A DNA stretch of 64,000 nt from Xestospongia bergquistia. Its lineage: Eukaryota > Porifera > Demospongiae > Haplosclerida > Petrosiidae. The stretch lies in NCBI GenBank assembly GCA_963965975.1, contig OZ014415.1:2237001-2301000 (forward strand). The letters run 5' to 3'. Under the pieces are notes generated by a model that saw only the letters and a program-made list of their open reading frames with translations, was not told the origin of the DNA and did not search any database. The position numbers and the translations under genes are program-made. Of this stretch, positions 13,981 through 58,700 are shown one piece after another; the stretch's first letter is position 1, and every line of letters starts with the position of its first letter.

Positions 13981-17647
<3,667 letters not shown>

Positions 17648-21600: not shown

Positions 21601-24600
21601 CATGTTATAAATTAGTATTTTTGCTAATAGATTTCTATGGACAATTCAAGTCATCTCTACATAAGTAGTGCTATTGTCTACATAGTGCAGTAATAAATCA
21701 ACATTATAATGAATGCCAGGTTCTAGTAATTACAGTGTCATAATGTAATTATTAACTGAGTTTGAGAGATTAATGCAAAGGGCAGTTAATGCTACAGTAT
21801 GTTTTACCTCTTAGTTGAGTTGTGGTTTGCACAGTAGCATATAAATACACAACTGACATGTTAGCCTATGATAAAAGATACAGTATTAAAATAAAGAGAA
21901 GATCTCTGTGGCATAACTAGGTATTTCGTTGTTGATGTAGCTTTACTTACATCTGATGCTACCATTCTTTTAGATGGCATCTCTTCAATTGTTTCCATTA
22001 CATTTTCAGTTGACTTGTCATGATGACCTACATTGGCATTCAAAGTATACTTCTCTTATTCACTGCTTCAATTGTCATAATATACAATTATAAAATAGAG
22101 CAACGAAAACAAACATACTATAATATTAATACAATATGCCATGTGGTCGATTATAAGACTGCTTGACATGCAAAAGCCAGGCAGTGTCTGACAATACTAT
22201 AGACACATATAAGTATTAATACGAAGAACTTTCACTGCTATATGAATTGTATATAATGTTAAGTTACTAATGTTAAATTCAAAAGACTCTTTAGAATTTA
22301 GTAAAAGCATTACATAAATTCTACCTCTTTCACTTTGTGTTAAAGGTTGCTCAGTAGTATATGGACCAACAACAGGCACACCATCCTAAAAGCAATTGTA
22401 TAATATTTATGATATTACAAAATACTATGAGTACATACCTGCTTTGGTAGTATCTCTCCTTTAAACCAAACTGCTTCCTCAGCACTAGGCATGCGATATG
22501 ATCGATTGTTTTCACAACAAATTGGCACATTAACTAATTGCTCCTCTCCAATCATAAGGTAGTGAGGATCACTGCTTTTAAGACATTGCTTGCAAACGTA
22601 CTGAAACTCTTTGGTAATAGGGATACATTGGAATGATTCACTTCGCGAATCCCGATGACTTCCAAGGACTTGCTCAACCTGCTGTCCACAGTATTGTAGA
22701 ACAGTCAATAGCTTCTGACATACAGCATTAATGGATTTAAAGGCTGGGTTATCAGGAGCATATCGCAACACATCAACTTGTATAGCAAAATGAAGATCAG
22801 TCAGAATGATGTGATCAATAGGTGGCTCGCCATATGTAAAGGAGACACGATTGCGATATATTCCATCTTTAAATACAAGTGAACACTTGCACAATGGATT
22901 ACTGGTAAAAGAAGTAACAAAACGTGTGAAGAAGCCTGGAGGTACAAATTTAGTACTAAAGATAATGTGTAGAGGAGTAGCTCGGAAATAATAGCCATGT
23001 GGAGCATCAGAAGGATCTCCTTTGAATGACTTCAGCATTGCTGGTAAAAAAAACTGCTTGACAGTTGGATCATGATATTCCTTGGTAGTAACTGGAGCAG
23101 CAAGACGAAAATTAACCAATAGTTCAATAATGGCTTCTGGACTTAACTCAGTAGTAAATCCAATCCAAATAGACACATACAATGTCTCTACTAGAATGCC
23201 CTTTTCCTGTAACAATGTCAACATTTTTCTTTTTCGTCCTTCTCTTCCATCTAAAGTAAATAATTTGCCAAGTGTGTCTATAAACCATTTGGGTTTAATA
23301 ATGACTTTATCCTTAAGCCCTTCAATATGGGGATAGAAGAGCACAACCCCTAGATCATGGTAAAAGAGGAGGGCTTTAGGGACATCATTATGTGGAATTT
23401 TACAAGCTACTCCAATAGCATGAGCTTCTTCAAGATTAATCACATTTTTTTCAAACATTTGGATAACTTTACGAAAGAGAACCCAACTGATTGGAGTTCT
23501 GACAATGAGTTTGTCATGAGTGAACTGACAAATGGCTCTTCGTAATATAGTGATATTGGGGTCTTCATCATTTCCTTTACCAGAAGTAGTATTATCAATG
23601 ATTAAGGTGTCTTCAATGAGTTCAAAATAGGCTTTATCCTTGTAATGATATTCAATCTGCTCTACAACTGCTTTCTTCTCTTCTTTGGTTTTCAAAATAT
23701 CACCATGAGTGCCAATGCAATACATGCCAGGGTATTCACAAAGACTACCATCCTGTTCTTGCCGAATTAGATGACAATAAATGCTAGCCATCCAATTGAG
23801 CATCAGATCAAGTGTAGTCACATTTACCACCTCATCAAAGATTTTATGTCCAGCCCTATGCTGCACAGACTGCCATCTTTCGTTAAAATCTTTTGATGCA
23901 TCAAACATGAGGAGAAACATTGTACGAGGAGTGAGGAATGCAGGGAGGATTTCAAGAAAAACAGGTTGACCACCACAATCCCAAATGTGCAAAAATGGTT
24001 GAGGTTTAATGCTTTTAAGATCATCTGTTGACATTTTCTCAGAAAGTAATATGGCTCTTGACAAAATATTATTAACATTAGCACCCTCTATATCTTCAAT
24101 TTGGTGTGAAGACAGTGAAGAAGCATTTATCATAGAAGCTATAGGGTAGAGTGCTGAGGCTGTAATTTTACTGTGAACAGACATGGTATTAGAAGGATCA
24201 TGATATACCAAAGCAAGTAGTTTTGCAAGTTCATCAATTTCATCAAGAAAGGTTACTTCTACTAATTTGTCATCATCTTCCTGATTAATGTTGTACCACT
24301 GTTGCCCAAAAGGCCGAACACAGCTGACATCAGATATAACAGTACTGGTAGTGTGGGGTTCCCAAGGCAGTTTCATCAACGATCGTTTCAAACTAGTTTT
24401 TCCAACACCTGCACTACCAAGAAGCATGATACGACCATATGCTACATCCATTTCGCCTTTATCCAGTGCTCTCATATAAGCATCTACAACATGTATATAA
24501 TTATTAGAAATAAAGACATAATATTATTAGATCCAATAAATGAATTATTGCTTATACAAACTTTATTGTAACATCATTTTATTTAATTAACTTTACCTCT

Positions 24601-27600
24601 TCTTTCCTTCCATTCCTATATTCAGTACACAACATAAGTGTTCATCACAGGAGTATTCAAATGGTAAAAAAAAACATTAATAATAGATATAACTACATCT
24701 ACCTTTAAAATATAACCAAGTTAGTTCACTATGCCTACATGTACATAAAAAGTATTCAAAAATATTTTGACACATTCTAAACTTTGAATTTTTTTCATTT
24801 CTTTGCATGTTATATTACAAAAGAACGATGATATTACCATCACTGGCCATTTCATTTGCCAGCATAATTTAGCTAAAGCAATCACTACCATGCTCAATGA
24901 TACACTATGTTATACAATATTACATTAGTAGTTATGATTTAGTGACAAATATACATTCACATACTTACTCTCTAAATAGTTGTGGTAATTGGAAGGTGTG
25001 TCATCAATCATAATAGGATCATTGATGAAAAGAAAGAGAAAAATGGAAATTAATAACAAGAAAAATCATGAAGAATTAAAAATGCACTAGTGAAATTATA
25101 TAAAATACACTTATGTTATACATTATCACATCAATTGTTATGATTTAGTGACAAATATGTATTGTACATACTTACTTTCTAAATAGTTGTAGCAATTGGA
25201 AGGGGCAACGTAAGTGAATACAAGGTTGTTGATGAGAAAGAAAAGTATAATGAAAATTAATAACACAAAAACAATTATTAAGAATCAAAAATATACTAGT
25301 GAAATTATATAAAATACACTATGTGATATAGTATCACATCAATTGTTATGATTTAGTGACAAATATACATTGCACATACTTACAATCTAAATAGTTGTAG
25401 CAAATGGAAGGTGGGTCATCAATGATTATAGGATTATTGATAAAAAGAACGAGAAAATGAAAAGTAATACTAAGGGTGATAGTTAAGAATTAAAATAAAA
25501 CTAGTGAAACTATATAAAATACACTATGTTATACATTATCACATCAATTGTTATGATTTACTAACAAATATACATTGCACATACTTACTTCCTAAATAGT
25601 TATAGCAATTGCAGAGTGGGTCATCAGTTATAACAGGATGAAGAAAAAAAGAAAAATTAAAATTAATAACAAGAACGATTATAAAGAATTAAAACATTGC
25701 ACATACTTACAGGCTAAATAGAATTGAAAGGTGAGTCATCAGTGATTACAGGATCATTGATGAGCAGACAGAGAAAATAAAAATTAATAACAAGAACGAC
25801 CATTAAGAGTTAAAAATAAACTAGTGAAACTATATAAAATACACTATGTTATATATCATCACATCAATTTTTATGATTTAGTAATAAATATACATTACGC
25901 ATACTTACTTCCTAAATAGTTGTAGCAATTGGAAGGTAAGTCATTAGTGATTACAGGATTATTGATGAGGAGAAAGAGAAAATGAAAATTAATAACAAGA
26001 ACGACCATTAAGAGTTAAAAATAAACTAGTGAAACTATATAAAATACACTATGTTATACATTATCACATCAATTGTGAATATTTTGTAAGATATATACAT
26101 TGCACATACGTACTTCCTAAATAGTTGTAGTAATTGGAAAGTGGGTCATCAGTGATAATTGATGAGGAGAAAGAGAAAATTGAAAATTAATAACAAGAAC
26201 AACCATTAAGAGTTAAAAATAATCTAGTGAAACTATATAAAATACACTATGTTATACATTATCACATCAATTGCTATGATTTAGTCACAAATATACATTG
26301 CACATACTTACACTCTAAACAGTTGTAGTCATTGGAAGGTAGGTCATCAATGATTATAGAATCATTGATGAGGAAAAAGAAAAAATTGAAAAAAAGATTG
26401 ATAACAAAAAAATAATTAAGAAATAAAAATGAAGTAATGAAACTATATACAATACACTATTTTATACATTATCATATCAATTGTTATAATTTAGTGACAA
26501 ATATACATTGTAGATACTTACAATCTAAACAGTTGTAGTCATTGGAATGTAAGTCAATAGTGATTACAGGATCATTGATGAGGAAAAAGAAAAAATTGAA
26601 AAAAGGTTAATAACAAAAACAATAATTAAGAAATAAAAATGAAGTAATGAAACTATATAAAATACACTATGTTATACGTTATCATATCAATTGTTAAGAT
26701 TTACTGACAAATATATGTTGCAGATACTTACACTCTAAATAGTTGTAGTAATTGGAAGGTGGGTCATCAGTGATAACAGGATCATTGATGAGGAGAAAGA
26801 GAAAAAGAAAATTAACAACAAGAACAATCATTAAGTATCAAAAATAAACTAGTGAAACTATATAAAATATACTATTTTATACATTATCATATCAATTGTT
26901 AAGATTTACTGACAAATATACATTGCGCATACTTACTCTCTAAATAGTTGCAGTAATTGGAAGGTGAGGCATCAATGATAACAGGATCATTGATAAGGAG
27001 AAAGAGAAAAAGAAAATTAACAGCAAGAACAATCATTAAGTATCAAAAATAAACTAGTGAAATAATATAAAATACACTATGTTATACATTATCACATCAA
27101 TTGTTAAGATTTACTAACGAATATACATTGCACATACTTACTCTCTAAATAGTTGTTGCAATTAGAAGGTGGGTCATCAGTTATTACAAAATCATTGATG
27201 AGGAGAAAGACAATTGAAATGAATAACAAGAATGATCATTAAGACTTAAAAATAAACTAGTCAAACTATATAAAATACACTATGTTATACATTATCACAT
27301 CATTTGTTATGATTTATTGACAAATATACGTTGTACATACTTACTCTCTAAATAGTTGTAGCAATTGGAAGGGCCATCATAAGCGATTACAGGATCATTG
27401 ATGAGAAAGAAGAGTATAATGAAAATTAATAACAAAAAAATTATTTAGAATCAAAAATAAACTAGTGAAATTATATAAATTACACTATGTTATACATTAT
27501 CACATCAATTGTTATGATTTAGTCACAAATATACATTGTACAATACTTACAGGCTAAATAGTTGTAGCAATTGGAAGGGCCATCATAAGCAATTACAGGA

Positions 27601-30600
27601 TCATTGATGAGAAAGAAGAGTATAATGAAAATTAATAACAAAAAAATTATTTAGAATCAAAAATAAACTAGTGAAATTATATAAATTACACTATGTTATA
27701 CATTATCACATCAATTGTTATGATATACTGACAAATATACAGTGCACATACTTACAGGCTAAATAGTTGTAGCAATTGGAAGGGCCATCATAAGCGATTA
27801 CAGGATCATTGATGAGAAAGAAGAGTATAATGAAAAAATTCATAACAAAAACAATTATTAAAAATCAAAAATAAACTAGTGAAATTATATAAAGTACACT
27901 ATGTTATACATTATCACATCAATTGTTATGATTTACTGACAAATATACAGTGCACATACTTACAGGCTAAATAGTTGTAGCAATTGGAAGGGCCATCATA
28001 AGCGATTACAGGATCATTGATGAGAAAGAAGAGTATAATGAAAAAATTAATAACAAAAAATTATTAAGAATCAATAATAAACTAGTGAAATTATATAAAG
28101 TACACTATGTTATACATTATCACATCAATTGTTATGATTTACTGACAAATATACAGTGCACATACTTACATCCTAAATAGTTGTGAGTTGTAACAAATTG
28201 AAATGTGGGTCATCAATGATTACAGGATAATTGATAAAAAGAATGAGAAAATGGAAAGTAATAATGGAACAATCATTAAGAATCAAACATAAACTAGTGA
28301 AACTATATAAAATACACTATGTTATACATTATCACATCAATTGTTTTGATTTAGTGATAGATATACATTGTATATACTTACCAACTAAATAGTTGTAGTA
28401 ATTAAAAGGTGGGTCATCAGTGATTGTAGCATAATTGATGAGGAAAAAGAGAAAATTGAAAATTAATAATCATTAAAAATTAAAAACAAACTAGTGAATC
28501 TATATAAAATACATGATGTTAGACATTATTACATCAATTGTTATGATTACGTGACAGATATACATTATAGATACTTACATACTAAATATTTGTAGCAATT
28601 GGAAGCCGGGTCATCAGTGATAACAGGATAATTAAGAAAAGAATGAGAAAATGAAAAGTAATAACAAGAACGATCATTAAGTATCAAAAGTAAACTAGTC
28701 AAACTATATAAAATACACTGTTATACATTATCACATCAATTGTTATGATTTACTAACAAATATATATTGCAAATACTTACATTCTAAATAGTTGTAGCAA
28801 ATGAAGGGCCATCATTAGAGATTACAGGATCATTGATGAGAAAGAAGAGTATAATGAAAATTAATAACAAAAAAATTATTAAGAATCAAAAATAAACTAG
28901 TGAAACTATATAAAATAAACTATGTTATACATTATCACATCAATTGTTATGATTTAGTGACAAATAGACATTGCAAATACTTACATCCTAAATAGTTGTG
29001 AGTTGTAACAAATTGGAATGTGGGTCATGAATGATTACAGGATAATTGATAAAAAGAATGAGAAAATGAAAAGTAATAATAAGAACAATCATTAAGAATC
29101 AAACATAAACTAGTGAAACTATATAAAATACACTATGTTATACATTATCACATTCAATTGTTTTGATTTAGTGATAGATATACATTGTAAATACTTACCA
29201 ACTAAATAGTTGTAGTATTTAAAAGGTGGGTCATCAGTGATTGTAGCATAATTGATGAGGAAAAAGAGAAAATTGAAAATTAATAATCATTAAAAATTAA
29301 AAACAAACTAGTGAATCTATATAAAATACATGATGTTAGACATTATTACATCAATTGTTATGATTACGTGACAGATATACATTATAGATACTTACATACT
29401 AAATATTTGTAGCAATTGGAAGCCGGGTCATCAGTGATAACAGGATAATTAAGAAAAGAATGAGAAAATGAAAAGTAATAACAAGAACGATCATTAAGTA
29501 TCAAAAGTAAACTAGTCAAACTATATAAAATACACTGTTATACATTATCACATCAATTGTTATGATTTACTAACAAATATATATTGCAAATACTTACATT
29601 CTAAATAGTTGTAGCAATTGGAAGGCGGGTCATCAGTGATAACAGGATCATTGATGAGTAGAAAGAGAAATTGAAAATAAATAACAAGAACGATCATTAA
29701 GATTTAAAAATAAATAAGTGAAACTATATAAAATACACTATGTTATACATTATCACATCAATTGTTATGATTTACTAACAAATATATATTGCAAATACTT
29801 ACATCCTATATAGTTGTAGAAATTGGAAGGCGGGTCATCAGTGATAACAGGATCATTGATGAGGAAAAAGAGATAATTAAAAATTAATAACAAGAGCAAT
29901 CATTAGGGATTAAAAATTAACTAGTGAAACTATATAAAATACACTACAAATATACATTGCACATACTTACACTCTAAATATTTGTAGTAATTGGATAGTG
30001 GGTCATCAGTGATAACAGGACCATTGATGAGGAAAAAGAGAAAATTAAAAAGTAATAATAAGAACAATCATTATGGATTAAAAATAAACTAATGAAACGA
30101 TATAAAATACACTATGTTTGACATTATTAGATCAATTGTTATAATTTACATTGGACATACTTACTTTCTAAATAGTTGTAGTAATTGGAAGGTGGATCAT
30201 CAGTGATTACAGGATAATTGATGAAATAAAAGAAAAAAATTAAAATTAATAACAAAAATAATCATTAATAATTAAAAACAAACTAGTGAAACTATATAAA
30301 ATACACTATGTTAGACATTATTTAATCAATTGTTATGATTTACAGAGAAATAAACATTGCACATCCTTACTCTCTAAATAGTTATAGTAATTGGAAGGTG
30401 GATCATCAGTGATTACAGGATAATTGATGAAATAAAAAAAAAATTAAAATTAATAACAAAAATAATCATTAATAATTAAAAACAAACTAGTGAAACTATA
30501 TAAAATACACTATGTTAGACATTATTACATCAATTGTTATGATTTAAAGAGAAATAAACATTGCACACACTTACTTTCTAAATAGTTGCAGTAATTGGAA

Positions 30601-31811
30601 GGTGGGTCATCAATGATTACAGGATAATTGATAAAAATAATGACAAAATGAAAAGTAATAACAAGAACGATCATTAAGAATCAAACATAAACTAGTGAAA
30701 CTATATAAAATACACTATGTTATACATTATTACATCAATTGTTATGATTTAGTGACAAATATACATTGCACATACTTACTCTCTAAATAGTTGTAATAAT
30801 TAGAAGGGCCATCATAAGCGATTACAGGATCATTGATGAGAAAGAAGAGTATAATGAAAATTAATAGCAAAAAAATTATTAAGAAACAAAACTAAACTAG
30901 TTAAATTATATAAAATACACTACGTTATACATTATCACATCAATTGTTATGATTTACTGACAAATATACAGTGCACATACTTACAGGCTAAATAGTTGTA
31001 GCAATTGGAAGGGCCATCATAAGCGATTACAGGATCATTGATGAGAAAGAAGAGTATAATGAAAATTAATAACAAAAAAATTATTTAGAATCAAAAATAA
31101 ACTAGTGAAATTATATAAAATACACTATGTTAGACATTATCACATCAATTGTTTTGATTTAGTGATAGATATACATTGTAGATACTTACATACTAAACAT
31201 TTGTAGCAATTGGAAGGTGGGTCATTAGTGATAACAGGATCATTGATAAAAAGAATGAGAAAATGAAAAGTAATAATAAGAACAATCATTAATAATTACT
31301 AATAAACTAGTGAAACTATATAAAATACACTAAGTTATACATTGTAACATCATTTAGTCACAAATATACATTGTAAATACTTACATTCTAAATAGTTGTA
31401 GTAATTAAAAGTGGGTCATCAGTCATTACAGAATCATTGATGAGGAGAAAGAAATTGAAATTAATAAGAAGAACAATCATTAAGAGTTAAAAATAAACTA
31501 GTGAAACTATATAAAATACGCTATGTTATACATTATCACATCAATTATTATGATTTAGTCACAAATATACATTGCAAATACTTACATTCTAAATAGTTGT
31601 AGTAATTGGAAGGTGGGTCATCAGAGATTACAGAATCATTGATGAGGAGAAAGAGAAAATTGAAAATTAATAACAAAAATAATCAATTAAAATAAAACAA
31701 TTACAAAGTTATTACAATCATAATGTTAATTGTTATTATTATTGTTTATAACACATTTATAACATGTTATATGTAACTTACTGGATTTTTACTGTAATAT
31801 CTTTTAGCCAT
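18322..31811 (-). CDS. ROCO1: Roc-COR GTPase with death-domain tail and single-codon microexon array
   Basis: Minus strand. Exon 1 is 31811-31782 (MAKRYYSKNP, phase 0). It is followed by 34 predicted 3-base exons (see array entry), a 19-base exon 24615-24597 (EWKERR plus one base), and the large exon 24483-22439. That exon has a P-loop GSAGVGKTS, a long insert, WDCGGQ (G3), GTHGD (G4) and a COR region (TPISWVLFRKVIQMFEKNVI, IIKPKWFIDTLGKLF). It ends with CKQC and CC cysteines. Then exon 22385-22325 (ends TQSER), an optional 45-base exon 21852-21808, and a death-domain last exon 21384-21059 (FMIGTALEVSQEDLNGL, TWEALLDAV, KYANQ-like end). The sum without the optional exon is 2583 bases, 860 residues, frame exact. 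Exon 22027-21951 (HHDKSTENV) has lost a phase-1 donor. Roc-COR plus death domain recalls DAPK1 and ROCO immune proteins; GTP-dependent signalling is inferred. Confidence 0.85.
18700..21058. repeat. Duplicated non-coding segment between the two ROCO1 last exons
   Basis: Sequence 18700-20040 matches 36280-37690 in ROCO2. A shorter part (GCTTCCAAGTTT, CAATTCAAGTCATC, ACATAAGTA) also matches 21540-21700 in ROCO1, showing that a last exon plus flank was duplicated within ROCO1. A phase-1 exon present in ROCO2 (37204-37139) is missing here: its two edges (CTACCTCTATCTGAAG and ATAGATATAATTATTTGTAT) are fused near 19561-19590. No other gene is seen; the small frames at 20265 and 20792 are unsupported. 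Confidence 0.6.
24597..24615 (-). CDS. 19-base microexon of ROCO1
   Basis: Bounded by AG (minus strand GAATATAG) and GTAAAG. It reads GAA TGG AAG GAA AGA AGA G, phase 0 in and phase 1 out, and joins the large exon as EWKERR-DAYMRALDKGE. The equivalents 40649-40631 (QWKERR) and 57732-57714 (EWKKRR) keep length, phase and charge pattern, which supports coding use. Confidence 0.8.
24838..24865 (-). CDS. Possible alternative first exon of ROCO1 that bypasses the microexon array
   Basis: Minus strand ATG CTG GCA AAT GAA ATG GCC AGT GAT G followed by GTAATA. It is 28 bases, ends in phase 1, and splices in frame to the large exon (MLANEMASD-DAY) if the 19-base exon is skipped. It is kept at 40908-40881 and 57981-57954. 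Only ROCO3 has an AG that would allow an internal 18-base phase-0 exon here (MKWPVM), so a first-exon role is the reading common to all three copies. Confidence 0.45.
24960..31690 (-). repeat. Array 1: 34 tandem repeats, each with a 3-base microexon
   Basis: Unit about 205 bases. On the minus strand each has a pyrimidine stretch (TTTTCTCTTTCTCC), CTGATGAC as a branch-site candidate, ACAACTATTTAG, three bases, then GTAAGTATG. Residues in transcription order with the left coordinate of each triplet: N31586 N31385 Y31190 P30985 R30780 K30575 R30371 K30165 S29971 D29803 N29598 Y29396 L29199 D28985 N28781 Y28579 L28382 D28170 P27964 P27756 P27551 R27345 R27142 R26937 S26732 I26522 S26312 E26114 E25909 P25711 E25589 I25384 K25176 R24969. 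No stop codon. The 26114 unit has donor GTACGT. The P25711 unit is shortened to about 120 bases. Spacing from exon 1 and to the 19-base exon continues without a gap, so the array is the first intron region of ROCO1. Confidence 0.9.
31782..31811 (-). CDS. ROCO1 first coding exon
   Basis: ATG GCT AAA AGA TAT TAC AGT AAA AAT CCA then GTAAGT: 30 bases, phase 0. The counterparts 47688-47659 (MAEKHDNIKP) and 60874-60845 (MAERDDTNKQ) have the same length, ATGGCT start and donor. Ten codons vary in sequence but not in length or phase across the three genes, which fixes the reading frame for the array. Confidence 0.8.
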
Positions 31812-38300: not shown

Positions 38301-40620
38301 ATGAATTGTATATAATGTTAAGTTACTAATGTTAAATTCAAAAGACTCTTTAGAATTTAGTAAAAGCATTACATAAATTCTACCTCTTTCACTTTGTGTT
38401 AAAGGTTGCTCAACAACAGACACACCATCCTAAAAGCAATCGTATAATATTTATGATATTATAAATTACTATGAGTACATACCTGCTTTGGTAGTATCTC
38501 TCCTTTAAACCAAACTGCTTCCTCAGCACTAGGCATGCGATATGATCGATTGTTTTCACAACAAATTGGCACATTAACTAATTGCTCCTCTCCAATCATA
38601 AGGTAGTGAGGATCACTACTTTTAAGACATTGCTTGCAAACATACTGAAACTCTTTGGTAATAGGGATAGATTGGAATGATTCACTTTGCAAATCCCGAT
38701 GACTTCCAAGGACTTGCTCAACCTGCTGTCCACAGTATTGTAGAACAGTCAATAGCTTCTGACATACAGCATTAATGGATTTAAAGGCTGGGTTATCAGG
38801 AGCATATCGCAACACATCAACTTGTATAGCAAAATGAAGATCAGTCAGAATGATGTGATCAATAGGTGGCTCGCCATATGTAAAGGAGACACGATTGCGA
38901 TATATTCCATCTTTAAATACAAGTGAACACTTGCACAATGGATTACTGGTAAAAGAAGTAACAAAACGTGTGAAGAAGCCTGGAGGTACAAATTTAGTAC
39001 AGAAGATAATGTGTAGAGGAGTAGCTCGGAAATAATAGCCATGTGGAGCATCAGAAGGATCTCCTTTGAATGACTTCAGCATTGCTGGTAAAAAAAACTG
39101 CTTGACAGTTGGATCATGATATTCCTTGGTAGTAACTGGAGCAGCCAGACGAAAATTAACCAATAGTTCAATAATGGCTTCTGGACTTAACTCAGTAGTA
39201 CATTCTCTCCAAATAGATACATATAATGTCTGTACTAGAATGCCCTTTTCCTGTAGTAATGTCAACATTTTTCTTTTTCGTCCATCTCTTCCATCTAATG
39301 TAAATAGTTTGCCGAGTGTGTCTACAAACCATTTGGGTTTAATAATAACTTTATCCTTCAAGCCTTCAATATGAGGATAGTAGAGGACAACTCCTAGATC
39401 ATGATAAAAGAGGAGGGCTTTAGGGACATCATTATGTGGAATTTTACAAGCTACTCCAATAACATGAGCTTCTTCAAGATTAATAACATTTTTTTCAAAC
39501 ATTTGGATAACTTTACGAAAAAGAACCCAACTGATTGGAGTCTTGACAATGAGTTTATCATGCGTGAACTGACAAATGGCTCTTCGTAATATGGTGATAT
39601 TGGGGTCTTCGTCTTTTCCTTTACCAGAAGTTGTGTTATCAATGATTAAGGTGTCTTCAATGAGTTCAAAATAGGCCTTATCCTTGTAATGAGATTCAAT
39701 CTGTTCTACAATCACTTTTTTCTCTTCTTTGGTTTCCAAAATATCACCATGAGTGCCAATGCAATAGATGCGAGGGTATTCACAAAGACTACCATCTTCT
39801 TCCTTCTGAATTAGATGACCATAAATGCTACCCATCCAATTGAGCATCAGCTCAAGTGTGGTCACATTTACCACCTCATCAAATATTTTATGTCCAGCCC
39901 TATGCTGCACAGACTGCCATCTTTCGTTAAAATCTTTTGATGCATCAAACATGAGGAGAAACATTGTACGAGGAGTGAGGAATGCAGGGAGTATTTCAAG
40001 AAAAACAGGCTGACCACCACAATCCCAAATGTGCAAAAAAGGTTGAGGTTTAACACTTTGAAGATCACTTGGGGACATTCTTTTAGAATAATCTATGGCT
40101 ATTGACAAAATCATATCAACATTAACAGCCTCTATGTCTTCAATTTGCTGTGAAGACAGTGAAGAAGCATTTATCATAGAAGCTATAGGGTAGAGTGCTG
40201 AGGCTATAATTTTACTGTGAGCAGACATGGTACTAGAAGGATCATGATATACCAAAGTAAGTAGTTTTGCCAGTTCCTCTATTTCATCATAAAAGGTTAC
40301 TTCTACTAATTTGTCATCATCTTCCCAACTCATGTTGTACCACTGATGTCCAAAAGGCCGAACACAGCTAACATCAGATATAACAGTACTAGTAGTGTGG
40401 GGTTCCCAAAGCAGTTTCATCAACGATCGTTTCAAACTAGTTTTTCCAACACCTGCACTACCAAGAAGCATGATACGACCATATGCTATATCCAAATCGC
40501 CTTTATCCAGTGCTCTCTTATAAGCATCTACAACATGTACATAATTATTAGAAATAAAGACATAATATTATTAGATCCAATAAATTAATTATTGTTTATA
40601 GCAAACATAATCTTATTTAA
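34748..40620. repeat. Segmental duplication of 15834-24600 with an internal deletion
   Basis: The order receptor fragment, death-domain exon, linker exons, Roc-COR exon and 19-base exon repeats the order at 15834-24615 in the same orientation. Bases equivalent to 16421-18031 are missing; GAAC is shared at both break edges (16417-16420 and 18032-18035, present once at 35301-35304), a microhomology deletion. Identity across the Roc-COR exon is very high, so the event is recent or the copies have been homogenised. Confidence 0.8.
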
Positions 40621-43600
40621 TTAACTTTACCTCTTCTTTCCTTCCATTGCTATATTCAGTACACAACAAAAGTGTTCATCACAGGAGTATTCAAATGGTA
40701 AAAAAAAACATTAATAACAAATACAACTATATCTACCTTTAAAGAGATAACAAAGATAATTCACTATGCCTACATCTATACTGATAGTATTCCAAAGCAA
40801 ATCCACACATTATAAACTTTTAAATTCTTTTATTTCTTTGCATACTATATTATAAATAATATATTATATTATTATATTACCATCACTGGCCATTTCATTT
40901 GCCAGCATAAATTTCAAAAAGGAACCATTACCATGTAAATTATCATATCAACTGTTATGATGAAGTGACAAATACATATTGCACATACTTACTCTCTAAA
41001 TAGTTGTAGCAATTAGAAGGTGAATCATCAGTCATTACAGGATCATTGATCAGGAAAAAGAGAAAATTCAAAATTAATAACAAGATCGATCATTTAGAAT
41101 TAAAGATAAACTAGTGAAACTACATAAAATACACTATGTTATACATTATCATATCAATTGTTATGATTTAGTCACAAATATACATTGCACATACTTACAG
41201 GCTAAATAGTTGTAGTAATTGGAAGGTGTGTCATCAGTTATTACAAAATTATTGACAAGGAGAAAGAGAAAATTTAAAATTAATAACAAGAACAATCATT
41301 AAGAATTAAAAATAAACGAGTCAAACTATATAAAATACACTATGTTATACATTATCATATCAATTGTTATTATTTAGTCACAAATATACATTGCACATAC
41401 TTACATCCTAATTGGAAGGTGGGTCATCAGTTATTACCAAATTATTGATGAGGAGAAAAACAAAATTGAAAATTAATAACAAGAACAATCATTAAGAATT
41501 AAAAATAAACTAGTCAAACTATATAAAATACACTATGTTATACATTGTCAAATCAATTGTTATGATTTAGTCACAAATACACATTGCACATACTCACATT
41601 CTAAATAGTTGTAGTAATTGCAAGGTAAGTCATCAGTTATTACAAAATCATTGACAAGGAGAAAGAGAAAAATTGAAAATTAATAACAAGAACAATCTTT
41701 AAGAGTTAAAAATAAACTAGTCAATCTATATAAAATACACTATGTTATACATTATCACATTAATTGTTATGATTTAGTCACAAATATATATTGCACATAC
41801 TTACTATCTAAATAGTTGTAGTAATTGGAAGGTGTGTCATCAGTTATTACAAAATTATTGATGAAGAGAAAGAGAAAATTGAAAATTAATAACAAGAACA
41901 ATCATTAAGAATTAAAAATAAACTAGTCAAACTATATAAAATACACTATGTTATACATTATCATATCAATTGTTATGATTTAGTCAAAAATATACATTGC
42001 ACATACTTACCACCTAAATAGTTGTAGTAATTGGAAGGTGGGTCATCAGTTATTACAAAATCATTGACAAGGAGGAAGAGAAAATTAAAATTAATAACAA
42101 GAACAATCATTAAGAGTTAAAAATAAACTAGTTAAACTATATAAAATACACTATGTTATACATTATCACATCAATTGTTATGATTTAGTCACAAATATAC
42201 ATTGCACATACTTACTCTCTAAATAGTTGTAGTAATTGGAAGGTGGGTCATCAGTTATTACAAAATCATTGACAAGGAGAAAGAGAAAATTGAAAATTAA
42301 TAACAAGAACAATCATTAAGAATTAAAAATAAACTAGTCAATCTATATAAAATACACTATGTTATACATTATCACATCAATTGTTATGATTTAGTCACAA
42401 ATATACATTGTACATACTTACTCCCTAAATAGTTGAGTAATTGGAAGGTGGGTTATCAGTTATTACAAAATCATTGACAAGGAGAAAGAGAAAATTAAAA
42501 TTAATAATAAGAATTATTAAGAATTAAAAATAAACTAGTCAAACTATATAAAATATACTATGTTATACATTATCACATCAATTGTTATGATTTAGTCACA
42601 AATATACATTGCACATACTTACTCTCTAAATAGTTGTAGTAATTGGAAGGTGTGTCATCAGTTATTACAAAAGCATTGACAAGGAGAAAGAGAAAATTGA
42701 AAAATAATAACAAGAACAATCATTAAGAATTAAAAATAAACTAGTCAAACTATATAAAATACACTATGTTATACATTATCATATCAATTGTTATGATTTA
42801 GTCACAAATATGCATTGCACATACTTACATCCTAATTGGAAGGTGGGTCATCAGTTATTACCAAATTATTGATGAGGAGAAAAAGAAAATTGAAAATTAA
42901 TAACAAGAACAATCATTAAGAATTAAAAATAAACTAGTCAAACTATATAAAATATACTATGTTATACATTGTCATATCAATTGTTATGATTTAGTCACAA
43001 ATACACATTGCACATACTCACATTCTAAATAGTTGTAGTAATTGCAAGGTAAGTCATCAGTTATTACAAAATCATTGACAAGGAGAAAGAGAAAAATTGA
43101 AAATTAATAACAAGAACAATCTTTAAGAGTTAAAAATAAACTAGTCAATCTATATAAAATACACTATGTTATACATTATCACATTAATTGTTATGATTTA
43201 GTCACAAATATATATTGCACATACTTACTATCTAAATAGTTGTAGTAATTGGAAGGTGTGCCATCAGTTATTACAAAATTATTGATGAAGAGAAAGAGAA
43301 AATTGAAAATTAATAACAAGAACAATCATTAAGAATTAAAAATAAACTAGTCAAACTATATAAAATACACTATGTTATACATTATCATATCAATTGTTAT
43401 GATTTAGTCACAAATATACATTGCATATACTTACCACCTAAATAGTTGTAGTAATTTGAAGGTGTGTCATCAGTTATTACAAAATTATTGACAAGGAGAA
43501 AGAGAAAATTGAAAATTAATAACAAGAACAATCATTAAGAGTTAAAAATAAACTAGTTAAACTATATAAAATACACTATGTTATACATTATCACATCAAT

Positions 43601-46600
43601 TGTTATGATTTAGTCAAAAATATACATTGTACATACTTACCACCTAAAAAGTTGTAGTAATTGGAAGGTGGGTCATCAGATATTACAGGATCATTGACGA
43701 GGAGAAAGAGAAAATTGAAATTAATAACAAGAATGACAATTAATAATTAAAAATAAAGTAGTCAAACTATATAAAATAAACTATGTTATACACTATCGCA
43801 TCAATTGTTATGATTTAGTCACAAATATACATTGTACATACTTACTCCCTAAATAGTTGTAGTAATTGGAAGGTGGGTTATCAGTTATTACAAAATCATT
43901 GACAAGGAGAAAGAGAAAATTAAAATTAATAATAAGAATGATTATTAAGATTTAAAAATAAACTAGTCAAACTATATAAAATACACTATGTTATAGATTA
44001 TCACATCAATTGTTATGATTTAGTCACAAATATACATTGCACATACTTACTATCTAAATAGTTGTAGTAATTGGAAGGTGTGTCATCAGTTATTATAAAA
44101 TAATGACAAGGAGAAAGAGAAAATTGAAAATTATTAACAAGAACAATCATTAAGTGTTAAAAATAAACTAGTCAAACTATATAAAATACACTATGTTATA
44201 CATTATCACATCAATTGTTATGATTTAGTCACAAATATACATTGCACATACTTACTCCCTAAATAGTTGTAGTAATTGGAAGGTGGGTTATCAGTTATTA
44301 CAAAATCATTGACAATGAGAAAGAGAAAATTAAAATTAATAATAAGAATGATTATTAAGAATTAAAAATAAACTAGTCAAACTATATAAAATATACTATA
44401 TTATACATTATCATATCAATTGTTATGATTAAGTCACAAATATGCATTGGACATACTCACATTCTAAATAGTTGTAGTAATTGGAAGGTAAGTCATCAGT
44501 TATTACAAAATTATTGACAAGGAGAAAGAAAAAAGTTGAAAATTAATAACAAGAACAATCATTAAGAGTTAAAAATAAACTAGTCAATCTATATAAAATA
44601 CACTATGTTATACATTATCACATTAATCGTTATGATTTAGTCACAAATATACATTGCATATACTTACTATCTAAATAGTTGTAGTAATCGGAAGGTGTAT
44701 CATCAGTCATTACAAAATTATTGATGAAGAGAAAGAGAAAATTGAAAATTAATGACAAGAACAATCATTAACAATTAAAAATAAAGTAGTCAAACTATAT
44801 AAATACACTATGTTATACACTAACACATCAATTGTTATAATTTAGTCAAAAATATACATTGCACATATATACTTACATACTAAATAGTTGTAGTAATTAG
44901 AAGGCAATAAGTCATCAGTTATTACAAAATCATTGACAAGGAGAGAGAGAAAATTGAAAATTAATAACAAGAACAATCATTAAGAGTTAAAAATAAACTA
45001 GTTAAACTATATAAAATACACTATGTTATACATTATCACATCAATTGTTATGGTTTAGTCACAAATATACATTGCACATACTTACCACCTAAAAAGTTGT
45101 AGTAATTGGAAGGTGGGTCATCAGTTATTACAAAATCATTGACAAAGAGAAAGAGGAAATTAAAATTAATAATAAGAATGATTATTAAGAATTAAAAATA
45201 AACTAGTCAAACTATATAAAATATACTATGTTATACATTATTATATCAATTGTTATGACTAAGTCACAAATATGCATTGCACATACTCACATTCTAAATA
45301 GTTGTAGTAATTGGAAGGTAAGTCATTAGTTATTACAAAATTATTGATGAAGAGAAAGAGAAAATTGAAAATTAATAACAAGAACAATCATTAACAATTA
45401 AAAATAAAGTAGTCAAACTATATAAATACACTATGTTATACACTAACACATCAATTGTTATAATTTAGTCAAAAATATACATTGCACATATATACTTACA
45501 TACTAAATAGTTGTAGTAATTAGAAGGCAATAAGTCATCAGTTATTACAAAATCATTGACAAGGAGAGAGAGAAAATTGAAAATTAATAACAAGAACAAT
45601 CATTAAGAGTTAAAAATAAACTAGTTAAACTATATAAAATACACTATGTTATACATTATCATATCAATTGTTATGATTAAGTCACAAATATGCATTGCAC
45701 ATACTCACATTCTAAATAGTTGTAGTAATTGGAAGGTAAGTCATCAGTTATTACAAAATCATTGACAAGGAGAAAGAAAAAAGTTGAAAATTAATAACAA
45801 GAACAATCATTAAGAGTTACAAATATACATTGCACATACTTACCATCTAAATAGTTGTAGTAATTGGAAGGTGTATCATCAGTTTTTACAAAATTATTGA
45901 TGAAGAGAAAGAGAAAATTGAAAATTAATAACAAGAACAATCATTAAGAATTAAAAATATACTAGTCAAACTATATAAAATACACTATGTTATACACTAT
46001 CACATCAATTGTTATGATTTAGTCACAAATATACATTGTACATACTTACTTCCTAAATAGTTGTAGTAATTGGAAGGTGGGTCATCAGTTATTACAAAAT
46101 CATTGACAAGGAGAAAGAGAAAATTAAAATTAATAACAAGAATGATTATTAAGATTTAAAAATAAACTAGTCAAACTATATAAAATAAACTATGTTATAC
46201 ATTATCACATCAATTGTTATGATTTAGTCACAAATATACATTGCACATACTTACAGGCTAAATAGTTGTAGTAATTAGAAGGGAAGTCATCAGTTATTAC
46301 AAAATTATTGACAAGGAGAAAGTGAAAATTAAAAATTAATAACAAGAACAATCATTAAGAATTAAAAATAAACTAGTCAATCTATATAAAATACACTATG
46401 TTATACATTATCACATCAATTGTTATGATTTAGTCACAAATATACATTGCACATACTTACTATCTAAATAGTTGTAGCAATTGGAAGGTGGGTCATCAGT
46501 TATTACAAAATTATTGACAAGGAGAAAGAGAAAATTGAAAATTAATAACAAGAACAATCATTAAGAATTAAAAATGAACTAGTCAATTTATATAAAATAC

Positions 46601-47688
46601 ACTATGTTATACATTATCACATCAATTGTTATGATTTAGTCACAAATATACATTGTATATACTTACTCTCTAAATAGTTGTAGTAATTGGAAGGTGGGTC
46701 ATCAGTTATTACAGGATCATTGATGAGGAGAAAGAGAAAAATTGAAAATTAATAAGAAAAACAAAAATTAAGAATTAAAAATAAACTAGTCAAACTATAT
46801 AAAATACACTATGTTATACACTATCACATCAATTGTTATGATTTAGTCACAAATATACATTGTAAATACTTACTTCCTAAATAGTTGTAGTAATTGGAAG
46901 GTGGGTCATCAGTTATTACAAAATCATTGACAAGGAGAAAGAGAAAATTAAAATTAATAACAAGAATGATTATTAAGATTTAAAAATAAACTAGTCAAAC
47001 TATATAAAATAAACTATGTTATACATTATCACATCAATTGTTATGATTTAGTCACAAATATACATTGCACATACTTACAGGCTAAATAGTTGTAGTAATT
47101 AGAAGGGAAGTCATCAGTTATTACAAAATTATTGACAAGGAGAAAGTGAAAATTAAAAATTAATAACAAGAACAATCATTAAGAATTAAAAATAAACTAG
47201 TCAATCTATATAAAATACACTATGTTATACATTATCACATCAATTGTTATGATTTAGTCACAAATATACATTGTATATACTTACTCTCTAAATAGTTGTA
47301 GTAATTGGAAGGTGGGTCATCAGTTATTACAGGATCATTGATGAGGAGAAAGAGAAAAATTGAAAATTAATAAGAAAAAGAAAAATTAAGAATTAAAAAT
47401 AAACTAGTCAAACTATATAAAATACACTATGTTATACATTATCACATCAATTGTTACACAAATATAAATTGCACATACTTACTTCCTAAATAGTTGTAGT
47501 AATTGGAAGGTAAGTCATCAGTTTATTACAGGATCATTGATGAGGAGAAAGAGAAAATTAAATAATATGATTATTATAAAGTACAAATTTATTACAATCA
47601 TAATATTAATTGTTATAATTATTAATAAAACATTTATAACATGTTATATATAACTTACTGGTTTTATATTGTCATGTTTTTCAGCCAT
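35896..47688 (-). CDS. ROCO2: Roc-COR GTPase with long basic linker and death domain
   Basis: Minus strand exons: 47688-47659 (MAEKHDNIKP), 33 three-base exons, 40649-40631, the 2045-base exon 40527-38483, then phase-1 symmetric exons 38429-38384 (SVVEQPLTQSER), 38085-37951 (HHDKSTENL to KPERSED), 37904-37731 (RKRKSKGVDSDVD to TKKRKQEDHK, lysine, arginine and serine rich with NLS-like KKRK), 37204-37139 (DSMTSEHYEEERG) and the death-domain last exon 36221-35896. The sum is 2940 bases, 979 residues, with no stop and every junction in phase. Roc motifs are intact: GSAGVGKTS, WDCGGQ, GTHGD. Compared with ROCO1 this is the most complete tail: ROCO1 has lost one linker exon, and the others are not found intact there. 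A signalling GTPase with a death-fold adaptor is inferred. Confidence 0.85.
40980..47570 (-). repeat. Array 2: 33 tandem repeats, each with a 3-base microexon
   Basis: Same architecture as array 1. Residues in transcription order with the left coordinate of each triplet: E47483 R47285 P47079 E46874 R46667 I46461 P46255 E46050 M45844 N45709 Y45500 N45291 V45086 Y44877 I44668 N44461 G44256 I44051 G43846 V43641 V43435 I43229 N43022 D42829 R42623 G42422 R42216 V42011 I41805 N41598 D41405 P41199 R40993. No stop. AAT units mostly use donor GTGAGT. The two GAT units at 41405 and 42829 share a 12-base deletion that leaves the acceptor CCAATTAG, proof that one was copied from the other. The unit near 45844 is shortened to about 135 bases. 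Confidence 0.9.
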
Positions 47689-52788: not shown

Positions 52789-55700
52789 CTATAAAAAGAA
52801 TGAGACAAAAATGATAGTAATAGAAATAACACTTGATAACATTTATACTGAAAACACTTGGTCATTATCAGATCAATAACTTTTCTGCACTCTATTTTAA
52901 TCCTGTATCAGTTAGATGAAAGCAACTATGTATGAATGACAAAATGTTCTCTCATCTTTCAAATTCTTCTTTGTAATATTCTTCAAGAGGACAATAAAAT
53001 AAGATTTTAGAGATTATTTTTATATAGCATTTATTTTCATGAAATATTCACATTGAATGCTATATAAAGCACTTTCAACAATAAAAGTAATAATGTTTAC
53101 AAAAAATGTTCCCCAGTGATCCCATTTTATTTACATTGGGACAGGATCTGTGACTGTGTATTTGGCTGGTTAATTAGTTCAATTATCTTGTTTACTTACT
53201 CACATATGTTTGTACATATGTATGTTCAAATAATACTAATATTTTTTTTAAAACTTGAGATACATGTTGCTTTAATTAAAATGAAATATTTTTAAAAAGT
53301 CATAAAATAAAGGGTATGACAGTCAAAGAATGCATTACAATATCTTTTACTCAATTGTTGAATTTCTGTTCATACATGATTCACAAAAAATGAATGCTTT
53401 TGTATTTTGAGTTTCTTGGGTTTGATAATGTCTTATTTTTGTGGCTACTACATAGTAGTTTTATTTTTTCTGATATTTGTGACATTGTTTACTACTAAAT
53501 TGGAAGTAGTGAAAACTATTAATTATGCATGTCAATTAAACTATGGTTATTAATTTAATATTTGGTAGGTTTACCAATACTTGTAAAAGCATTGAAAACA
53601 TATAATGATAACAAAACACTATGTCTACTATTTCAACAATATATAGTATTGATTACTTGATTCCATAATTTTGTAATTCCATAAATCCAATCGGTTCCAA
53701 AATATGAAAATTGTTTATGGAAACTGATTGATACACATAAATTTGATAATTGAAAGGTTTTGACATTGTTATTGACAAATCTGGAATGGTTACAGCAATG
53801 AATGGTTTGCTTCTAAAATGTGTAGAAAACTTGTACTTTAACAAAAATCTTTAACATTTTGGTAGATGTTTTTACCAAGACTTGGTTGTAAACTGAACAC
53901 AATACATACAAGTTCAATACCTGGTAAGTTATAATGTTGTTTCTAAAACTTTGGAAATGTTACAGTAATAAGCAGTTTACTTCTAAATTAAAATATATAA
54001 AAAATGGGCACATCTTAACATTTGATAGATAATTTTTTAGTTACACTTGTTATATTTTATACATTGTAATTGAAACTAAAACAGTTCATGTTTAATATCT
54101 AGTAGATTTTGACATTGTTATTGAAAAACATGGAATGATCAAGGCAATAAATATTTTTCTTCAATGTGTTATACGTTTTACCAATTCAGTATACACATAA
54201 TAAACTTTAGAATAGAACCTTTACTTATCTAACTGAATCCGTTTCTTGTCTTCCATAGTCACTGATCAGCTGGCCATGGGTACCTCTTAATTAGGTGGAA
54301 CTTGTTCACTCTGTACATTCTCAATAATGGATGGAGCTCCAATGTTCTGTCAAACTTTCCAGGATTCTGCATTATATTAAGTTAAACAATAAACTTAAAA
54401 GAATATACTTGTTATCTATAAAATCAGATCTTTGTATTTATATTTGTTGGGAATTCTACAGTGTGATTAATTGCTTTCAAGATAGGAGACAATTTCAGTT
54501 ACAAGTAGCAGTATATTGCCCTATTATTTTATCAATAAACATATTTCCATACATTAATCTCACTAACAAAAGTCAACAACAATACTAAAAATATAATAAT
54601 GATAATAATGTAATAGTAAGACAGTACTTTGTAAACAAACAATATGGTTATATTACATGTTTAAATTAACCACAAAATGCGTCCTTTTTGCAGATTAGAT
54701 AAGCCATTTTCTTCTGTAGCTATTTCATTGTATCTAAAAGAAAGAAAAAAGAATACTCATCACTTATTAAAATAAACATTTATATGTACCTTTATATTTT
54801 TCTATAATGATATCAGCTAAGTCATTTCGACTTAAATTTCTTAAAATATCACAAAAAATCTTTAAAATATCAGCATTATGTTCAATACAATTTTTTAGAA
54901 AATCTAGAATTTTATCAAGACGCTCTTCACTTGTATCCCTACATTCTTTGTCTTTCACTTTCTTATAAACATCTTCAGGCATGATTTCTTTTGAATAGAG
55001 TTTCCTTGCTAGAACAAATGGGTCAATACCTGATTCAACAATAATATCAGTGCATTGAACTAAAGCTCGCCTAGCTACACCAGAATTCAGAGTACCATCT
55101 AGAGTGTAGAGGCAAAACATGGAGCTGTTATTACTATATCAGAAAAAAGAGATAATCTATATATACATTGCTCATAGTTATGTTCTAGTCAAATGATTTG
55201 GTAGCATTAAAATGGTAACAAATCTATTATTGTAATACCTATATCTTTTGAAATAGGAATATTCTCACTAGCCCCTGATATTGTAGTTGACACTATTTAA
55301 AAGAATAATACAATTAAATATACTATGTAGAACTTTCACTGCTATATGAATTGTACATGATGCTAAGTTACTAATGGCAAATTCAACAAACTCTTTAGAA
55401 TTCAGTATAAGCATTACATAAATCCTACCTCTTTCACTTTGTGTTAAAGGTTGCTCAGTAGTATATGGACCAACAACAGGCACATCAACCTATAAGCAAA
55501 TGATATAATGATATCAGCAAACAATAATATCACAAAATATTATGAGTACATACCTGCTTTGGTAGTATCTCTCCTTTAAACCAAACTGCTTCCTCAGCAC
55601 TAGGCATGCGATATGATCGATTGTTTCTACAGCAAATTGGCATGTCAACTGATTGCTCCTCTCCAATCATAAGGTAGTGAGGATCACTGCTTTTAAGACA

Positions 55701-58700
55701 TTGCTTGCAAACGTACTGAAACTCTTTGGTAATAGGAATACATTGGAATGATTCACTTCGCAAATCCCAATGACTTGCAAGGACTTGCTCAACCTGCTGT
55801 CCACAGTATTGTAGAACAGTTAATAACTCCTGACATACTGCATTAATGATTATAAAGGCTGGGTTATCAGGAGAATATCGCAACACATCAACTTGTATAG
55901 CAGAATGAAGATCAGTCAGAATGACGTGATCAATAGGTGGCTCGCCATATGTAAAGGAGACACGATTACGATATATTCCATCTTCAAAAAAAAGTTCACA
56001 CTTGCACAACGAATTAAAGGCAAAAGAAGTAACAAATCGAGTAAAGAAGCCTGGAGGTACAAATTTAGTACTAAAGATAATGTGTAGAGGAGTAGCTCGG
56101 AAATGATGGCCATGTGGAGCTTCAGAAGGATCTCCTTTGAATGACTTCAGCATTGCTGGTATAAAGTACTGCTTGACAGTTGGATCATGATATTCCTTGG
56201 TAGTAACTGGAGCAGCAAGACGTAAATTAACCAAAAGGTCAATAATGGCTTCTGGACTTAACTCAGTAGTACATTCTCTCCAAATAGATACATATAATGT
56301 CTGTACTAGAATGCCCTTTTCCTGTAGTAATGTCAACATTTTTCTTTTTCGTCCTTCTCTTCCGTCTAATGTAAATAGTTTGCTGAGTGTGTCTACAAAC
56401 CATTTGGGTTTAATAATAACTTTATCCTTCAGGCCTTCAATATGAGGATAGTAGAGGACAACTCCTAGATCATGATAAAAGAGGAGGGCTTTAGGGACAT
56501 CATCATGTGGAATTTTACAAGCTACTCCAATAACATGAGCTTCTTCAAGATTAATAACATTTTTTTCAAACATTTGGATAACTTTACGAAAAAGAACCCA
56601 ACTGATTGGAGTCTTGACAATGAGTTTATCATGCGTGAACTGACAAATGGCTCTTCGTAATATGGTGATATTGGGGTCTTCATCTTTTCCTTCACCAGAA
56701 GTTGTGTTATCAATGATTAAGGTGTCTTCAATGAGTTCAAAATAGGCCTTATCCTTGTAATGAGATTCAATCTGTTCTACAATCGCTTTTTTCTCTTCTT
56801 TGGTTTTTAAAATATCACCATGAGTGCCAATGCAATAGATGCGAGGGTATTCACAAAGACTACCATCTTCTTCCTTCTGAATTAGATGACCATAAATGCT
56901 ACCCATCCAATTGAGCATCAGCTCAAGTGTGGTCACATTTACCACCTCATCAAATATTTTTTCTCCAGCCTTATGCTGCACAGACTGCCATCTTTCGTTA
57001 AAATCTTTTGATGCATCAAACATGAGGAGAAACATTGTACGAGGAGTGAGGAATGCAGGGAGTATTTCAAGAAAAACAGGCTGACCACCACAATCCCAAA
57101 TGTGCAAAAAAGGTTCAGGTTTAACACTTTGAAGATCACTTGGGGACATTCTTTCAGAATAATCTATGGCTATTGACAAAATCATATCAACATTAACAGC
57201 ATCTATGTTTTCAATTTGTTGTGAAGACAGTGAAGAAGCATTTATCATAGAAGCTATAGGGTAGAGTGCTGAGGCTACAATTTTACTGTGAGCAGACATG
57301 GTACTAGAAGGATCATGATATACCAAATCAAGTAGTTTTGCAAGTTCGTCTATTTCATCATGAAAGGTTACTTCTACTAATTTGTCATCATCTTCCCAAC
57401 TCATGTTGTACCACTGATGCCCAAAAGGCCGAACACAGCTGACATCAGATATAACAGTACTGGTAGTGTGGGGTTCCCAAGGCAGTTTCATCAAGGATCG
57501 TTTCAAACTAGTTTTTCCAACACCTGCACTACCAAGAAGCATGATACGACCATATGCTACATCTAATTCGCCTTTATCCAGTGCACTCTTATAAGCATCT
57601 ATAATGTGTACATAATTATTACAAATAAAGACATAATATTATTAGCTCCAATAAAATAAATTATTTTTTATAGAAAAATTTATTATAACATTATCTTATT
57701 TAATTTCTTTTACCTCTTCTCTTCTTCCATTCCTATATTCAGTACATAATGTAAGTGTTCATCACAGGAGTATTCAAATGGTAGAAAAAAGTACATTAAC
57801 AAAAGATATCACTACATCTATAGATACCTTTAAAAGATAGTTCACTATGTTCAAATTTATATATAAAGTATTCTAAAACATTTCACACATTCTAAACTTT
57901 GAAAATTTTTTATTTCTACATTATGCTATATTATAAAAGGACAATGACATTACCATCACTGGCCATTTCATCTGCCAGCATCATTTTCCTAAAGCAATCA
58001 CTACCATGTTCAATGACATACTATGTTATACATTATCATATCAATTATTATGATTTAGTCACAAATATACATTGCACATACTTACTCTCTAAATAGTTGT
58101 AGCAATTGGAAGGTGAATCATCAGTCATTACAGGATCATTGATCAGGAAAAAGAAAAAATTCAAAATTAATAACAAGAACGATCATTAAAGGTTAAAATA
58201 AACTAGTGAAACTATATAAAATACACTATGTTCATATATCAATTGTTATGATTTAGTTACAAACACATACTTACCAACTAAATAGTTGTAGTAATTGGAA
58301 GGTAAGTCATCAGTGATTATAGGATAATTGATGAGGAGAAAGAGAAAATTGAAAATTAATAACAAGAACGATCATTAAGAATTAAAAATAAACTAGTCAA
58401 ACTATATAAAATACACTATGTTATACATTATCACATCAATTGTTATGATTTAATCACAAATATACATTGTACATACTTACAGGCTAAATAGTTGTAGCAA
58501 TTGGAAGGTGGGTCATCAGTTATTACAGAATCATTGACGAGGAGAAAGAAAAAATTGAAAATTAATAACAAAAACGATCAATAAGAATTAAAAATAAACT
58601 AGTGAAACTATATAAAATACACTATGTTATACATTATCACATCAATTGTTATGATTTAGTCACAAATATACATTGCACATACTTACATCCTATATAGTTG

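Follow-up and report, generated by a model that had tools for sequence, protein, structure and literature searches.

Can part of a protein be assembled from a row of exons that each carry a single codon? This question is raised by a 64,000-nucleotide stretch of the genome of Xestospongia bergquistia (contig OZ014415.1, positions 2,237,001 to 2,301,000), hereafter the window, in which tandem repeats lie upstream of genes of the ROCO family. Coordinates are positions in the window, and exon models are our own reading. Judging from the genomic sequence, we consider it likely that the triplets in these repeats are real exons of one codon each, spliced stepwise and translated into low-complexity arms. 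At the DNA level this is supported by uniform exon length, conservation of the splice sites, absence of stop triplets, agreement of phase and recurrence across the genome. Inclusion in mRNA, the stepwise order, translation, the role of the arm as a linker and selection itself are what we infer from these features.

Putative single-codon exons in the window

The original prediction described one array of 34 repeats (array 1), each donating one amino acid. All 34 show AG, three bases and GT, a profile search that does not demand intact splice sites returned the same count, and the 34 codons had been listed correctly. The description of an intact acceptor and donor in each repeat stands for AG and GT, but some units replace the strings CTATTTAG and GTAAGTATG by the variants ATATTTAG, CTGTTTAG, GTAAGG and GTACGT. 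Steps between repeats measure 194-214 bases, except for two short ones of 168 and 122 bases, in agreement with the proposed spacing of about 205 bases. The array is flanked, as described, by a 30-base exon 1 ending in phase 0 and by a 19-base exon, and the latter leads in frame into the Roc-COR exon, keeping the frame of the whole gene. The idea that each repeat would add one amino acid gains support at the DNA level from the length of three, the lack of stops, the phase-0 flanks and the recurrence described below. The tandem array thus exists as predicted, but two others were missed: the window holds three arrays (34, 33 and 14 units), and each lies between an exon 1 and a 19-base exon of its own, ahead of a Roc-COR frame (Table 1). 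All three open reading frames have Roc followed by COR-A in one frame, with Pfam scores above cut-off, which places them in the ROCO family. No match to the unit pattern used for array 1 was found on the plus strand of the window. In array 2, the donor is GTGAGT in all five AAT units and GTAAGT in the remaining 28, a linked codon-donor subtype.

Table 1. Features of the three array-bearing ROCO genes in the window
Feature	Position	Strand	Description
Exon 1, array-1 gene	31782..31811	-	30 bases, MAKRYYSKNP, ends in phase 0, donor GTAAGT
Array 1	24969..31588	-	34 single-codon exons, NNYPRKRKSDNYLDNYLDPPPRRRSISEEPEIKR, unit mostly ~205 bases
19-base exon, array-1 gene	24597..24615	-	EWKERR(G), phase 0 to 1
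Roc-COR frame, array-1 gene	22415..24483	-	phase-1 entry, 688 codons open, Pfam Roc and COR-A
Exon 1, array-2 gene	47659..47688	-	30 bases, MAEKHDNIKP, phase 0
Array 2	40993..47485	-	33 single-codon exons, ERPERIPEMNYNVYINGIGVVINDRGRVINDPR
19-base exon, array-2 gene	40631..40649	-	QWKERR(G)
Roc-COR frame, array-2 gene	38459..40527	-	688 codons open, Pfam Roc and COR-A
Exon 1, array-3 gene	60845..60874	-	30 bases, MAERDDTNKQ, phase 0
Array 3	58086..60718	-	14 single-codon exons, AWKALGPPRRDPLR
19-base exon, array-3 gene	57714..57732	-	EWKKRR(G)
Roc-COR frame, array-3 gene	55530..57598	-	688 codons open, Pfam Roc and COR-A

Conservation of the splice sites in the window exceeds chance. AG and GT are invariant in 81/81 aligned units; since the mean departure of body columns from the consensus is 11%, breakage at four random columns would be expected in about 30 of the 81 units, and none is broken. 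Pairwise diversity in the three triplet columns is 0.68, 0.73 and 0.61, compared with a mean of 0.15 over 175 body columns, only two of which reach the lowest triplet value (0.61) and none the triplet mean. These figures bear on the possibility that the arrays are a transcriptionally inert satellite with fortuitous splice-like motifs, made uniform by homogenisation. Such a satellite would account for the tandem structure and for the likeness of introns inside each array (among the eight arrays analysed, the mean diversity of the body is 0.36 for the one on contig C1 and 0.06-0.18 for the other seven). Homogenisation would, however, level the triplets too, and in the window these are the most variable positions beside near-invariant neighbours. 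As this explanation also leaves the absence of stops, the single length and the phase agreement in two gene families unexplained, we regard it as highly improbable.

Recurrence and exon length across the genome

The genome searched was the window's own (146 Mb, 21 contigs); C1, C10, C11, C14 and so on are its contig labels, C10_4.41 and the like are arrays there, and L-numbers are stretches. Unit profiles retrieved 14 arrays with 472 units in all, spread over seven contigs including that of the window, and 438 of the 472 have an acceptor and a donor around an intact three-base exon, the site arrangement of a microexon (30 bases or less). This count leaves out 34 units in which AG, GT or the length of three is missing or the score is bad; 18 of them belong to C1, many being weak matches. 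One excluded unit (C14:4062948) was parsed as TAA between broken sites, and two excluded C1 matches are a seven-base candidate with TAA. The longest arrays are C11, with 95/95 units intact, and C10_4.41, with 80/83. Body columns of C11 depart at 10.1%, so that about 33 of 94 units would be expected to be broken; the site reading found every unit intact, and a separate column alignment has one departure at A and one at G. The donor hexamer is GTAAGT in 405 of the 438 intact units, a uniformity that may compensate for absent exon contacts.

The single-site pattern CTATTTAGNNNGTAAGT occurs 381 times genome-wide versus 6 in the control. A pattern for neighbouring three-base exons, of any sequence and 110-140 bases apart, matches 2,428 pairs (control 28); the matches listed, 100 of the 2,428, all lie at C1:9.61-9.84 Mb and belong to a different intron family. 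Pairs with 141-171 bases between them number 135 (control 19) and are partly simple repeats. First-exon lengths of 3 and of 4-9 bases were tested in tandem genome-wide, and with 4-9 bases the 110-140 pattern gave 17 matches versus 39 in the control. Tandem pairs therefore use length three, since pairs of this length far exceed the control while 4-9 bases stay at background.

Length also bears on another explanation, that the arrays are ratchet points aiding the removal of a long intron, with incidental triplets, or that transcripts begin downstream of the array. In the part of PMC8605326 available to us, ratchet points of recursive splicing are juxtaposed acceptor and donor sites. As at those of Drosophila, acceptor and donor nearly abut in all units, the one following the other at once, which implies stepwise removal; a possible ATG below the array in the C10 copies would suit a downstream start. 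Unlike at ratchet points, each step here would leave one codon: no bases are retained there, whereas three lie between the sites in 438/438 intact units. Since these three bases are sense, first exons of 4-9 bases do not rise above background and incidental triplets should include stops, this explanation seems very unlikely.

Other clusters of tandem three-base exon matches, with different intron families, lie at C1:9.61-10.03, 13.1-16.85, 19.5-19.8 and 26.9-27.4 Mb, at C7:3.80-4.21 Mb and on C2. Two such stretches were read (L059 and L060), one of which is tied to a gene (ankyrin, L060). The other, L059 1-8100 (C1:9.6254-9.6335 Mb), holds 41 three-base exons, solely TTT, CGA, GAA and GAT, with three broken donors and one two-base case, and the 9 kb examined show no obvious gene; this is possibly a decaying or young array. 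A group of four intact window-family units (ITGR) at L044 4980-5720 (C8:2.556 Mb) lies away from any Roc match and directly adjoins an inverted repeat whose arms measure about 29 bases (by eye); this array seems to have been copied to a new location. A tandem repeat of about 85-base units at C8:6984123-6985412 also fits TAG-NNN-GTAAGT. The search for relatives in other genome contigs gave one match, on a Bacilli contig with the triplet pair TAG and CTC, which we take as chance, and none was found in viral contigs.

Reading frame, flanking exons and unit history

None of the 438 intact exons in the 14 arrays is a stop triplet. The TRR form of the CTATTTAGNNNGTAAGT pattern has one match, TGG. 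Genome-wide pairs with a TRR first exon number 95 (control 15), a count that reads only the first exon of each pair; inspection of all 95 gave 87 TGG, eight TAA, no TAG and no TGA. The eight TAA exons (C3, C4 and C10) belong, judged by eye, to two repeats whose downstream sequence is different and which look unrelated to the arrays. Because TGG is one transition from either TAG or TGA, it is difficult to see, unless the exons are translated, why neither accompanies the 87 TGG, even if the copies are related. Joined triplets contain no stop in the proposed frame and 15 and 60 stops in the offset frames. The freedom from reading-frame constraint expected of an inert satellite was thus not found, with the reservation that the conservative distinct-codon test is not significant. 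The predicted arms are of low complexity, rich in Arg/Pro/Asn in array 1, in Glu/Leu/Arg in C11 and in Gln/Leu/Ser in C10_4.41; SDNYLDNYLDPPPR is an arm peptide predicted from the arrays. A retrocopy or uninterrupted arm was sought by a DNA search with the joined predicted exons and not found among its four matches: three are the exon 1 copies themselves and the fourth reaches 83% over about 56 bases on C14. This is a weak negative, because the search skips common words.

The flanking exons agree in phase. Exon 1 was identified at six of the 14 arrays and ends in phase 0 in all six, with 30 bases at five and 36 at one; it was not found at the other eight, just 33 bases upstream being examined for C11a. 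As read, in-frame joins to Roc are made by a 19-base exon (the three window genes and C14), by a 25-base exon (C10_1.44) or by direct phase-0 entry (C1). The AG of the 19-base exon is retained in the three window genes and C14 and lost in the C10 and C11 families; because the next AG lies 9 or 6 bases further, an adapter exon of 10 or 13 bases would stay in frame there. In the damaged C10_3.87, the same shift gives nine bases, out of frame. A row of six three-base exons at C1:9.725 Mb precedes a phase-0 exon of 99 bases that codes for an ankyrin repeat (Pfam Ank 2.8e-14 when joined with the following exon). With arrays preceding both Roc and ankyrin exons, the architecture appears to be present in at least two gene families. 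Roc-COR, ankyrin and fibronectin type III genes are in keeping with an animal genome. The non-coding stretch from the last unit to the Roc exon is highly similar among C10/C11 paralogues (L041, L042, L046 and L048), which recent duplication may explain.

We propose that each repeat is an exon-plus-intron unit whose exon would be one codon. The factors for an acceptor and a donor three bases apart can hardly bind together, given the footprints of splice sites, so the introns are probably removed one after another. Working like a ratchet, the spliceosome would take out the short introns in turn and leave one codon at each step, so that exon 1 would be linked in phase 0, through n codons and a short adapter exon, to the Roc-COR or ankyrin exons. 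This would yield a low-complexity N-terminal arm, one residue longer or shorter with every gain or loss of a unit. The introns would be kept alike by tandem duplication and by exchange between units, and selection would keep sense codons and working splice sites.

Since each exon is one phase-0 codon, any subset could be skipped without loss of frame, and variable subsets might be included per cell, giving many variants of the arm. The frame neutrality and diverse codon content of the intact units are consistent with such combinatorial inclusion, units with broken donors (three of 83 in C10_4.41) could simply be skipped, and the micro-exon genes of schistosomes are described as using alternative splicing for protein variation (PMC10526429, as far as available). 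The same donor hexamer in 405/438 units suggests uniform use instead of regulated choice, and we think combinatorial inclusion rather unlikely. Its extension to a diversity system across the genome, with at least some two thousand frame-neutral single-codon exons (ROCO, ankyrin and perhaps other families) used in variable subsets and germline gain or loss of units adding variation, is likewise unlikely.

Several observations weigh against real, translated exons. Intact sites are lacking in 34/472 profile units. Splice sites are less well conserved in C1, with AG departures in 5 and 8 of 69 aligned units, and the 11 core columns of C10_1.44 are no better than random (P 0.20); the third triplet base of this array is T in 24/24 units. 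The looser single-site pattern CTATTTAGN{4,30}GTAAGT lies above control (145 vs 54); among the matches listed, 100 of the 145, most resemble copies of unrelated dispersed elements and one is a four-base exon, CCCT, within an array. In the C10 copies, no stop separates the adapter exon from an ATG further up in the same frame (MNPYSY...), which makes a transcript start bypassing the array conceivable. The first offset frame is also stop-free in 9/14 arrays. Within-array base shuffles of the 117 distinct array-codon pairs give no stop in 0.8% of trials (0.1-5.7% if a single position is shuffled), the absence of stops is not significant on the 38 distinct codons alone (P 0.21), and paralogues and duplicated units are non-independent data. 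A synonymous deficit (6 synonymous vs 113 nonsynonymous neighbour pairs) was rejected as proof of selection, composition-keeping shuffles giving similar values; no synonymous constraint beyond base composition was found. Helical order in the predicted arms did not exceed that of shuffles in any of the six arrays tested (lowest P 0.09).

The joint decay of arrays and Roc frames was also considered as proof and rejected. Four arrays before a damaged Roc (open for just 69, 32 or 149 codons, or lacking the P-loop) have 56/63 units intact, compared with 256/259 in five arrays before an open Roc (the three window arrays, C11 and C10_4.41; P 0.0006, or 0.025 without three truncated hits). Further subsets gave P 0.004, 0.017 and 0.00002, but all eight open-Roc arrays, with C1, C14 and C10_1.44 added and Roc open as far as read, have 360/385 intact (P 0.19), and C10_4.06 is intact in 27/27 units despite a Roc stop after 149 codons. 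Because the result depends on the arrays compared, we treat it as a hint only. The clean four-base exon, CCCT, belongs to the array with the Roc stop after 69 codons. Early stops were seen in the Roc copies of L007/L046, L053, L041 and L008, and the P-loop is missing in L052.

In recent block duplications of several units, triplets differ at 26/369 sites (7.0%) and bodies at 506/17,252 (2.9%). Since the codons differ more than the introns, purifying selection on single codons is without support, and since they differ at so few sites they are not mutating wildly; neither accelerated nor constrained codon change is supported in these duplications. When the introns of window units have diverged by 3-6%, the triplets differ at 65% of sites (212 pairs), usually in two or three bases; in pairs with less than 3% they are almost identical, with 9% differing (18 pairs). 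C1 differs from this, the codon being kept almost always in pairs up to 15% diverged. The nearest neighbours by intron share their codon in 65% of units, compared with 16% by chance (four pooled arrays); intron and codon are therefore linked in part. On the simplest reading, the codon diversity would be old and the introns repeatedly homogenised.

Relation to known exon arrays

A close parallel is offered by the micro-exon genes of Schistosoma, for which the available portions of PMC10526429 give 10-20 exons per gene, exon lengths of 6-81 bases in the text (3-81 in the abstract), mostly 15, and introns of 0.1-5 kb. As far as those portions go, those genes assemble protein regions out of numerous very short exons, their lengths mostly divisible by three, with introns in between, as is predicted here; unlike there, intact exons here have three bases, number up to 95 per array and lie in similar tandem units of about 120-215 bases. 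Many short exons of varied length, mostly 15 bases, were not found in the sponge, whose tandem exons have three bases; the tandem search covered first exons of up to nine bases, and those of 4-9 bases are at background. A further trait of the schistosome genes is a secreted product with an N-terminal signal peptide; a predicted N-terminus here is, for example, MAKRYYSKNP. Tandemly repeated 81-base exons were reportedly described in S. mansoni by Davis et al. in 1988, a study cited in PMC10526429; going by that citation, tandem exon repetition in one gene is common to both, with 81 bases there and three here. Dscam also has tandem exon duplications, its exons being long and mutually exclusive. 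Arrays of duplicated exon-intron units are thus found in both, whereas the sponge exons have three bases and are jointly in frame. According to the part of PMC8042270 available to us, mouse Ncam and Drosophila TnT have single three-base exons, each spliced between ordinary ones. The predicted one-codon exons are shared with those genes; in what that part covers they are single, while here they form tandem rows across the genome. We found no description of a tandem array of three-base exons among the titles and openings of abstracts that our literature searches listed, bioRxiv and most subscription journals lying outside the scope of the search.

We rate the architecture as categorically new and the chemistry, that of spliceosomal microexons, as known. 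If transcribed as predicted, the coding sequence would be split to its smallest piece, with one codon per exon and up to 95 in a row, and one genome would hold some two thousand or more such exons. This would set a lower limit for gene structure and offer a test case for how the spliceosome handles back-to-back splice sites. It would also provide a route to lengthen proteins by single residues, and standard annotation and read alignment could overlook whole protein segments.

Elsewhere in the window, Pfam at E 0.01 returned nothing for six open reading frames downstream of the array-3 Roc-COR frame. At positions 14978-15147 and 15901-16593, a long CT dinucleotide run adjoins a fibronectin type III frame.

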